Source: DATDCY01 sp031406795 [NCBI: Candidatus Rokuibacteriota bacterium] (GTDB taxonomy: Bacteria > JAUVQV01). Taken from it: DNA of 15,364 bases. The notes beneath the pieces are model-generated. The model was not told where the DNA came from. It made no database searches and saw nothing but the letters and a program-made list of their open reading frames with translations. Position 1 is the first letter of the stretch, and each line of letters opens with the position of its first letter. Made by a program: the position numbers and the translations under genes. Location of the stretch: NCBI GenBank assembly GCA_031406795.1, contig JANOHV010000115.1, forward strand, positions 1 to 15,364, in the 5' to 3' direction. Positions 1 through 10,194 of the stretch are shown piece after piece.

Positions 1-67
1 CTCGTAACTCGCCTTCGGCTCAAACAACGAGCCCGCGTCCCTGCGGGACCGCCCCGGGCGGCACTCC
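1..67 (-). repeat. Structured repeat motif, copy 1 (window-edge truncated)
   Basis: Read on the minus strand from 67 to 1, this stretch folds as a GC-rich hairpin (GTCCC-GCA-GGGAC, 49-37) followed by a second stem CTCGT/ACGAG (31-27 with 5-1). The second stem encloses an internal loop TGTTTGA/GAGTT and an apical GCC-GAA-GGC hairpin. The same order of elements and the same loop bases recur on the plus strand at 256-329, with different stem bases. The two copies also share a GGAG(C)TGCCGC block at their 5' side. I do not recognise the family. It could be a noncoding RNA motif or a REP-like extragenic repeat, and it may continue beyond base 1. Confidence 0.5.
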
Positions 68-204
68 GCGCTGATCGGCGTCTTCGCGCATCTTCCCTCA
101 GTGACGCCCCCGCCGCCTTGCCGTGATCTGTGTCGTTCTGATCGTGATGTCCGTTCACAGGAACTCTCTCTCTGAGTCCGGATAACTGAGTTTGAACGGG
201 TCAG

Positions 205-399
205 GGCGGTGGCGGTACGGTGTTGTGCGGCCGCGTGGCGGAGCGCGAGGGAACCGGAGCTGCCGCACCGGAGCGTCCCCGAAGGGGCGAAGCGTGCTGT
301 CTGAGCCCGCAGGGCGAGTTGCACGCTTCGAGCGCAGGGGCGGACAGGCTCCGGTCGAGCGCGGAGCTGGCGGCCGCACGACACCGTGCCGCCGCCGCC
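205..399 (+). ncRNA. Candidate structured RNA / large palindromic element
   Basis: Bases 205-234 pair with 370-399 over 30 positions: 27 Watson-Crick pairs and three G-U pairs (T210-G394, T216-G388, T224-G380) when read as plus-strand RNA. On the minus strand these three would be A-C mismatches, so the plus strand is the better candidate for the transcribed strand. Inside are an 8-bp stem (253-260 or 267-274 with 348-355), a CCCC-GAA-GGGG hairpin (277-287), and an 8-bp stem (289-296 with 322-329). The last encloses the CTGTCTGA / GAGTTG internal loop and a GCCC-GCA-GGGC hairpin. No gene is supportable here and I see no convincing plus-strand promoter. It may be a noncoding RNA or a palindromic mobile repeat. 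It lies just downstream of ilvC and could also act as a transcription barrier. Confidence 0.45.
256..329 (+). repeat. Structured repeat motif, copy 2
   Basis: This is the plus-strand counterpart of the motif at 67-1. It runs GGAGCTGCCGC, then the CCCC-GAA-GGGG hairpin, then stem GAAGCGTG/CACGCTTC, internal loop CTGTCTGA/GAGTTG, and an apical GCCC-GCA-GGGC hairpin. The stems differ in sequence from copy 1 yet stay paired, while the loop bases are kept. That is the pattern expected of conserved structure. It sits inside the 30-bp outer stem 205-234/370-399. Confidence 0.5.
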
Positions 400-424
400 C
401 CGAAACGGTCGCTTGATCTGTCGG

Positions 425-8793: not shown

Positions 8794-10194
8794 CTAGCCG
8801 ACCTCGTTGTAGGGCCGGATTCTAAAGGCTGCGCCGAGTTCCTTTTCGGCGATGCGCCGGCAGGCCTCGACATCGACGCCGGGCAGCGCCACGACGCTCG
8901 CGGTGACGCTCGGCACGAATGCTCGCGCCTCGCGGATGAATTCCCTGACGGCCGCGTAGGCGGCCTCGCCGGCGTCCGGGCGGCAGATCCGCGTGTACCG
9001 GGCGGCGTCCGGCGCGTTGAGGCTCACCGAGAGCGCGTCGACCACCCCGGCCATCTCGGGCAGGATGTCGCGGCCCAGGAAGAGCCGGGATTGCCCGTTC
9101 GTGTTGATGCGCACACGGGCGCCCCGGGTCTTCAACGCCTGGGCCACCTCGCGCACCACGTCCCAGCGCAGCAGCGGTTCGCCGAAGCCGCAGAAGACCA
9201 CCTCGTCGTAGCCGCCGATGTCGCCCGCGGCCTCGAGCACTTCCTGCGCCGTCGGTTCGTGTTCCAGGTGCAGGTCGTGCCCCTTGACGATCGGGCTGCT
9301 CTCCCGGGTGCAGAACGTGCAGCGATTGCTGCAGCGGCCGGTCACGTTGAGGTAGAGGGAGTTGCGGATCGGGTAGGCGATCTCGGGCGCCGGGGGCGGG
9401 CACGGGAGACCGAACAGGGCGCAGGCATTGCGGGTGCTGATGCGCCGCACGTCGCGCTCCGCGAGGCCCTTGAGCGCGGCCAGGGCGGCCGCGGTCTCGG
9501 CGACATAGGCCGGCTCGTTGCGCTGGCCGCGGTGCGCCTGGGGGGCGAGGAACGGGGCGTCGGTCTCGACCACCATTTTTTCGATCGGCAGCGCGCGCGC
9601 AACTTCGGGCAGCGTCGAGCGCGGGTAGGTCAGCGGGCCGGCGAGCGAGAGGATGAACCCGAGCGCGAGAGCCCGCTCCCCGTCCTCCCGGGTTCCCGAG
9701 AAGCAGTGCAGCACCCCGCCGATCTCGCCGGCGCGCTCGCGCTCCAGCAGCGCGAAGGTGTCCGCCGCGGCGTCGCGCGAGTGGATCACGAGCGGCTTGC
9801 CGAGGGCGCGGGCGAGCGCGATGTGGCGGACGAAGAGTTCGGCCTGCCGGTCGCGGGGCGATCGGTCCCGGTAGTAGTCGAGCCCCGTCTCGCCGATGGC
9901 GACCACGCGGGGGTCGGCGGCGAGGCGCGCGAGTTCCTCCCATTCCCCGCTCGTGACGGCGGCCGCGTCGTGCGGGTGCACCCCGGCGGTCGTCGTGACG
10001 AACCCCGGGTGGTCGGCGGCGATCGCGAGGTTCCGGTGCAGGGAGGCCAGGTCGATCGACGCGCTGACGATGTGGATGATCCCGGCGGCTCGCGCGCGAT
10101 CGAGGACAGCCGGGAGATCGGACGCGAACTCCGGCATGTCGAGGTGAGCGTGCGTGTCAATCAGCGGCGGCAGGGGCGAAAAGGGGGCGCTCAC
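8794..10194 (-). CDS. TatD-family nuclease fused to a TatD-linked radical SAM domain
   Basis: This two-domain protein has 466 residues. Residues 10-265 are a complete TatD metal-dependent hydrolase/DNase: DTHAHLD (13-19, H15 and H17), GETGLDYY (101-108, E102), IHSRDA (137-142), LHCFSG (162-167) and ETDAPFLAP (210-218). Residues about 275-466 are a short radical SAM domain with the [4Fe-4S] cysteines C288, C292 and C295 in CSNRCTFC, then FCGFGEPLLR (334-343) and RINTNGQS (362-369). TatD-associated radical SAM proteins are a known family whose substrate is unknown, and they occur beside or fused to TatD. Both domains keep their key residues. The GTG start overlaps the metG stop as GTGA. Confidence 0.93.
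   Translation of the reverse strand: MSAPFSPLPPLIDTHAHLDMPEFASDLPAVLDRARAAGIIHIVSASIDLASLHRNLAIAADHPGFVTTTAGVHPHDAAAVTSGEWEELARLAADPRVVAIGETGLDYYRDRSPRDRQAELFVRHIALARALGKPLVIHSRDAAADTFALLERERAGEIGGVLHCFSGTREDGERALALGFILSLAGPLTYPRSTLPEVARALPIEKMVVETDAPFLAPQAHRGQRNEPAYVAETAAALAALKGLAERDVRRISTRNACALFGLPCPPPAPEIAYPIRNSLYLNVTGRCSNRCTFCTRESSPIVKGHDLHLEHEPTAQEVLEAAGDIGGYDEVVFCGFGEPLLRWDVVREVAQALKTRGARVRINTNGQSRLFLGRDILPEMAGVVDALSVSLNAPDAARYTRICRPDAGEAAYAAVREFIREARAFVPSVTASVVALPGVDVEACRRIAEKELGAAFRIRPYNEVG

Follow-up and report, generated by a model that had tools for sequence, protein, structure and literature searches.

Two inverted copies of a conserved hairpin tip beside ilvC, probably part of a family of giant-hairpin, MITE-like interspersed repeats

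Palindromic repeats of bacterial genomes are usually classified by the foot of the hairpin (GTAG, CGTC) or by their terminal repeats, whereas the repeats described here have their constant part at the tip of a ~120-290-nt hairpin. REPs are given as 21-65 nt long (PMC6006769), and the MITEs described include Chunjie of Geobacter uraniireducens, which measures 178-235 bp and has 37 copies besides the one of full length, and the ~190-bp QMITE2 of Coxiella burnetii (PMC10969869). As far as that description extends, the present repeats resemble these two MITEs in size, mostly intergenic location, terminal inverted repeats, direct repeats of the target and strong secondary structure, and differ from described MITEs in a tip loop common to elements with unrelated ends, a feature that goes unmentioned in that portion of the text (PMC10969869); Chunjie was compared by description and may carry the tip. 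With REPs and REPINs and their RAYT (TnpA-REP) enzymes, as presented in the accessible sections, they have in common intergenic palindromes, lineage-specific stems, mismatched internal loops, asymmetric strands and inverted pairs, and they differ from them in forming a giant hairpin and in keeping the tip rather than a foot tag GTAG/GTGG or CGTC (PMC6006769, PMC3733652). Relative to the same accounts of REPs and REPINs, they also differ in having target-site duplications in two genomes and in the absence of the tip beside RAYT genes. The multicopy sequences of Geobacter metallireducens and G. bemidjiensis, compared by description only and from the accessible parts of the sources, are likewise numerous, intergenic and partly palindromic (PMC2700814, PMC2996986). 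Overall, the ends of the family are MITE-like in two genomes and its tip is somewhat REP-like, and neither label covers the shared tip. The tip was not found described in the open-access literature, searched by words and by sequence strings with closed journals and supplements outside the scope, and within the literature searched it is new that elements whose ends are unrelated keep a constant tip; an earlier description under another name is possible, the Geobacter repeats and Chunjie having been compared by description only.

The window, which is the whole stretch of 15,364 nt that was analyzed, contains both copies of the motif that the original prediction had placed in opposite orientation near its left end (minus strand 67-1 and plus strand 256-329; Table 1). 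That prediction was right but incomplete, since the larger palindrome around copy B was absent from it. The two copies are probably the tips of two neighboring, inverted giant-hairpin interspersed repeats, that is, of MITE-like, non-autonomous, mobile and almost wholly palindromic elements, mostly ~120-290 nt long, whose ends would be cut by transposases supplied in trans and whose tip would be read by a trans-acting factor.

Table 1. Positions of the two copies, their structural parts and the adjacent gene within the window
Feature	Position	Strand	Remark
Copy A, truncated at window edge	1-67	-	GGAGTGCCGC block (67-58), side hairpin GTCCC-GCA-GGGAC, outer stem, tip
Copy A outer stem CTCGT/ACGAG	31-27/5-1	-	window edge directly beyond
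Copy A tip TGTTTGA-GCC-GAA-GGC-GAGTT	6-26	-	0 matches in 300 window shuffles
Copy B giant hairpin, imperfect palindrome of ~230 nt (231 nt), ends approximate	190-420	+	predicted fold -157.6 kcal/mol, z -8.47
Copy B basal stem, 5' arm	194-234	+	inverted repeat I1, 41 nt, 83% complementary
Copy B basal stem, 3' arm	370-410	+	inverted repeat I1
Copy B middle stem, 5' arm CCGGAGCTGCCGC	254-266	+	pairs with 339-354 in predicted fold
Copy B middle stem, 3' arm GGCGGACAGGCTCCGG	339-354	+	predicted fold
24-nt block ACCGGAGCGTCCCCGAAGGGGCGA, with side hairpin CCCC-GAA-GGGG inside (277-287)	267-290	+	identical in two G544 elements
Copy B upper stem, 5' arm CGAAGCGTGC	288-297	+	10/10 paired with 321-330
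Copy B tip TGTCTGA-GCCC-GCA-GGGC-GAGTT	298-320	+	pattern match
Copy B upper stem, 3' arm GCACGCTTCG	321-330	+	10/10 paired with 288-297
ilvC, ketol-acid reductoisomerase, 365 aa	425-1522	-	Pfam KARI_N, KARI_C

The unusual features of the locus are a fixed loop amid changing stems and the larger fold. The pattern TGTYTGAGCN{3,14}GCGAGTT has two matches in the window and none in 300 dinucleotide-preserving shuffles, and the fold of the larger palindrome reaches a z of about -8.5 whichever strand is used. Accidental folding of GC-rich sequence would fit the short stretches, which folded alone do not exceed shuffles in stability (z 0.19 for copy A and -1.42 for copy B), but the empty shuffles, a 24-nt identical block in another genome (G544) and a permutation test over 35 genomes (both described below), the last of which refutes it, leave chance with a negligible probability.

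Further copies exist in relatives. The tip, searched as TGTCTGAGCN{3,14}GCGAGTT, is present in 40 out of 395 sampled genomes of one Deltaproteobacteria-like phylum, the richest of which contain 110, 21, 20, 14, and 14 copies, whereas the reversed pattern gave a single match in each of three of the same 395 genomes. Within a Myxococcales-type phylum the tip matched in 1 out of 140 genomes and the reversed control gave six matches in five genomes; the tip match was rejected as chance because it was outnumbered by the control. Among 49 other genomes that were reached through ilvC, three contained a single match, and the match in G025 sits in a real giant hairpin. The relatives' loci comprise 80 regions of 14 genomes with 97 copies among the matches listed (the first ten places per genome, so that copy-rich genomes are partly sampled), and the family was compared by exact patterns, BLASTN and permutation. 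Representatives that were folded, up to two per genome, mostly form long, imperfect hairpins whose apex is the tip, and a few folds miss the tip. The copies are mostly intergenic; mechanical ORF calling placed four of them within an ORF of at least 200 aa.

The invariant part is an asymmetric internal loop, TGTYTGA facing GAGTT, flanked by an inner hairpin and an outer stem. The covariation proposed from the two window copies, in which the loop is kept while the stem bases change and still pair, extends to the stems of 35 other genomes. One copy per genome was chosen regardless of its stem from those 35 of the 40 motif genomes that had a fetched locus, the chance-looking sites L176, L179, L180, and L191 were kept, and the 3' flanks were permuted 2,000 times. 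A mean of 8.49 out of 10 outer positions was paired compared with 5.01 after permutation, and 26 out of 35 genomes had at least 8 out of 10 outer pairs compared with a permuted average of 2.0 (at most 7). The paired flanks lay outside the search pattern; the constancy of the loop is partly a selection effect because both halves of the loop stood in it. A relaxed, stem-aware scan of the loci gave 238 raw matches of which 136 passed the inner and outer stems, compared with 13 and 0 for its reversed control, and is to be read as a control on stems rather than a survey, as the tip had served to fetch most of the loci and some sites stand under two ids. The first inner pair of the 136 stem-passing copies is GC in 133, TA in two and AT in one; one of the TA copies belongs to an IMG/VR contig and is likely a chance site.

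A DNA search with window positions 235-370 over the 395 genomes gave matches in two genomes. The 24 bases ACCGGAGCGTCCCCGAAGGGGCGA of copy B recur without a mismatch in the G544 elements L344 and L346, whose upper stems are unlike that of copy B and still paired. Both elements keep TGTCTGA, one keeps GAGTT while the other reads GATTT, and 3' of the loop they carry TCGAACGCAGGG where the window has TCGAGCGCAGGG. The loop was no part of the pattern in this search, and the two elements thus provide a direct test that the initial two-copy comparison passed. A further match (L345, in G342), whose inner stem is a variant one, was left out of the count.

Covarying pairs together with conserved unpaired positions, by which structured non-coding RNAs are recognized, are both found in the family. 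Apical loops of the 3-nt GNA form are common and 4-nt loops of the GNRA form (GTAA, GCAA, GAAA, GTGA) also occur. A second YGAG box is present in the 3' arm in 18 out of 31 cases compared with 9.0 in shuffles (at most 17 in 500), a post hoc test based on mononucleotide shuffles. If the loop is read as a kink-turn, with tandem G-A pairs by the inner stem, the C-stem side would depart from the kink-turn consensus.

The outer stems show a strand asymmetry. Within the outer stems of 98 copies the TGTYTGA strand contains 25 G-T pairs and 6 A-C pairs (p = 0.0009), where the 98 copies are those left from 201 rows after the exclusion of 86 rows with fewer than seven Watson-Crick pairs or cut flanks and of 17 identical repeats. 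The ratio is 14:2 in tail elements (described below) and 11:4 in the others, and over whole stems the difference is not significant (139 G-T vs. 108 A-C, p = 0.056). A symmetric cruciform predicts equal numbers of G-T and A-C pairs, and the excess therefore points to one strand that folds by itself, whether as RNA or in single-stranded DNA. The orientation of neighboring genes was analyzed for 73 copies with an ORF of at least 120 aa within 1.2 kb on each side. No bias was found, as the upstream gene reads into the element in 34 out of 73 cases and 15 sites are convergent and 15 divergent, which argues against terminators and leaders.

These results bear on two alternatives. A structured non-coding or cis-regulatory RNA family that has its own function and has spread by duplication, and in which the tip acts as a protein-binding RNA motif, would agree with the fixed internal loop, the covarying stems, the excess of G-T over A-C pairs on one strand, and the GNA and GNRA-form loops. 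This explanation is nevertheless unlikely given the absent orientation preference, the patchy distribution and the MITE ends in two genomes; the comparison with Rfam that had been suggested alongside the original prediction also speaks against it, as the window gave four matches (E 0.19-0.85), all of them far below their gathering scores, and 10 element loci gave a tRNA only. The second alternative, that the hairpins are bidirectional transcription terminators or mark mRNA ends, draws on their strength and intergenic location and on the basal arm of copy B, which ends 14 bp short of the ilvC stop codon, but it is very improbable because convergent sites are not enriched (15/73) and divergent sites are equally frequent, and because a fixed tip loop, terminal repeats and duplications are not required by terminators.

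Signs of mobility come from two relatives. Elements in G545 end in the terminal inverted repeats GTAACTATTCAGC/GCTGAATAGTTAC and carry exact 8-bp target-site duplications at their ends in three out of six copies compared with 0 out of 30 mismatched pairs (here, below and in the pair counts above, copies within a genome share descent and the counts are not independent events); one more copy has an 8-bp duplication with one mismatch. The elements in G544 end in a different pair of terminal inverted repeats, GGAGTTTCC/GGAAACTCC, found by eye, and six out of eight measurable copies carry duplications of 8-12 bp at the ends or at most 3 nt off, compared with 1 out of 56 mismatched pairs with at least 7 bp. 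These duplications were measured from the terminal repeats, as automatic boundaries fell short, and 2 out of 10 copies were not measurable. Five other G544 copies have sharp ends, since 285-311 bp alone match a 2.6-kb query. The end-to-end length is 236-263 nt in G545 and 284-292 nt in seven out of eight G544 copies (366 in the remaining one), the G532 element measures ~120 by eye, and two copies in G509, which contain inserted repeats, extend to 465 and 532. The elements are short, non-autonomous and gene-free, as expected of MITEs, and those of G545 and G544 have the terminal inverted repeats and target-site duplications of MITEs as well. In ten further genome sets no duplication signal stood out clearly from mismatched pairs (automatic boundaries failed in some, e.g., G509), and cut-and-paste mobility is therefore established for two lineages only. 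The family as a whole is real, repeated and structured, and it is mobile in relatives. For the window copies themselves no terminal inverted repeats were found, and the only candidate target-site duplication in the flanks of copy B, TGATCTGT at 124-131/414-421, is at chance level (matched in 206 out of 2,000 shuffles); based on family resemblance, we infer that these copies have transposed too. A search for empty sites found no syntenic relative.

The ends of the G545 and G544 elements are unrelated and their tip is the same. A further type, the tail-type elements (G399, G321, G323, G294, G232, and some IMG/VR contigs), has a second hairpin just downstream on the same strand, about CTTTCTTTTG...AAAGAAAAG; no duplications were detected and no terminal inverted repeats were found for this type, which may spread in another way. 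Because the G545 ends, the G544 ends and the tail type differ, the same tip occupies at least two chassis, probably three. The second hairpin, about CTTTCTTTTGNNTACTTTTCTTTGG...CAAAGAAAAGTA, was observed at loci of these five genomes (e.g., L216, L225, and L246) and at L163, L178, L085, L088, and L133, and it is also present in tip-less loci of Pseudoalteromonas and Paraburkholderia megaplasmids (L306, L307). IS66, the sole DDE family tried, is present in 7 out of 44 genomes and absent from G545 and G406, and the G545 ends are missing from the examined stretches of 16 IS66 loci; IS66 was accordingly not supported as a partner, and no transposase was tied to any end type with this one DDE family checked.

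A different source of mobility would be a REP-associated tyrosine transposase (RAYT, Y1 HUH) that reads the hairpin tip of REP elements in single-stranded DNA. A Y1 transposase is present in 21 out of 21 motif genomes with at least two copies compared with 15 out of 23 motif-free genomes (p = 0.004), the Y1 tree (rows enriched for motif genomes) contains a clade of 13 short RAYTs that all derive from motif genomes, and short RAYTs are found in 18 out of 40 motif genomes compared with 50 out of 355 others (p = 1e-5, 395 genomes; cut at E 1e-60 or better, set after inspection of the table). This explanation is nonetheless improbable. Not one of the 50 Y1 loci examined carries the tip, so that RAYT genes flanked by the element were not found, and short RAYTs are absent from 22 out of 40 motif genomes and from 6 out of the 12 richest (genomes that may be incomplete). 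The association of short RAYTs with motif genomes is thus neither necessary nor specific. Furthermore, the short RAYT genes have flanks of their own: GGGACA upstream and TGTCCC downstream, each within 120 nt, bracket 8 out of 14 genes (L298, L338, L324, L290, L295, L334, L289, and L342) and occur on one side of four more (L343, L341, L296, and L333), compared with a chance expectation of ~0.03 per side. The short RAYTs therefore seem to have their own repeat, possibly a separate repeat family. To our knowledge, target-site duplications of 8-12 bp are not expected from HUH Y1 enzymes, which also counts against a RAYT. The part that is kept here is the tip, whereas REPs keep a 5' tetranucleotide at the foot (PMC6006769). 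At the tip stem, inspected by eye in one copy from each of the 35 genomes, no GTAG/GTGG tag was seen. The original prediction had weighed two options, structured RNA and REP-like element, against chance; chance drops out, the RNA half stays putative and the REP-like half is the better one because the family is an interspersed palindromic repeat. The REP-like label needs to be corrected for the size of ~120-290 nt, the MITE marks in two genomes and the 0 out of 50 Y1 loci with the tip.

Under the favored explanation of MITE-like giant hairpins, ordinary transposases that are supplied in trans and differ between lineages would cut and paste the elements at their ends. The TGTYTGA strand, when not in a duplex (either within a transcript or in DNA that is single-stranded during replication or transfer), would fold into the long hairpin and expose the tip loop, and a putative trans-acting factor would recognize this loop as RNA or single-stranded DNA. 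Recognition of the tip may help the element to persist or spread, in which case the tip would stay fixed while stems and ends turn over. That such an odd loop is kept despite differing stems and ends suggests that a factor reads the tip. More tentatively, and with somewhat less than an even chance of being correct, the elements may represent a tip-defined class of mobile giant hairpins with unrelated ends and presumably unrelated transposases in many bacterial lineages, served by one putative common tip reader (a single-stranded DNA- or RNA-binding protein, perhaps of the host), where the tip would be a module captured by, or parasitic on, several transposon chassis. A common reader is what a tip shared across unrelated ends predicts. 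TGTYTGA...GAGTT with paired flanks provides a sequence handle for the annotation of repeats in many poorly studied genomes. Long palindromes are normally unstable in bacteria, and the giant hairpins bear on how they are tolerated.

Viral, plasmid and phage collections were also compared. A good outer stem was found in 11 out of 76 IMG/VR matches compared with 1.2 after permutation (at most 7), and by outer-stem pairing the IMG/VR matches were mostly rejected as chance sites rather than family members. The IMG/VR contigs L106, L111, and L151 contain several giant-hairpin copies with the tip and with long, nearly perfect arms, and these contigs may be bacterial rather than viral; one 42-kb IMG/VR contig contains at least four copies by pattern, some of them inverted. 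The window element had no match in the plasmid and phage collections, nor did one G545 element in the former or one G544 element in the latter. A G399 element matched three plasmid records over the tail stretch only, and the tip was absent from both loci inspected.

Apart from the two copies, the window contains an ordinary series of minus-strand genes, with Pfam support for ilvC, leuA, pssA-type, psd, ilvH, ilvB-type, TsaB/TsaD-type, Usp, TatD/radical SAM, metG-type, DHH protein, rbfA, and infB genes. The infB gene is at most 62% identical to that of any genome tested, and the exact tip pattern is absent from the genomes nearest by infB (G253, G218, and G250). The ilvC product matches a "bacterium" record at 86% and Lentisphaerae- and Verrucomicrobiota-titled records at up to 84%, while infB, unlike ilvC, scores best in the Deltaproteobacteria-like phylum, and horizontal transfer is possible. 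A single reading frame at 8794-9900 combines TatD nuclease and radical SAM domains in a fusion protein.
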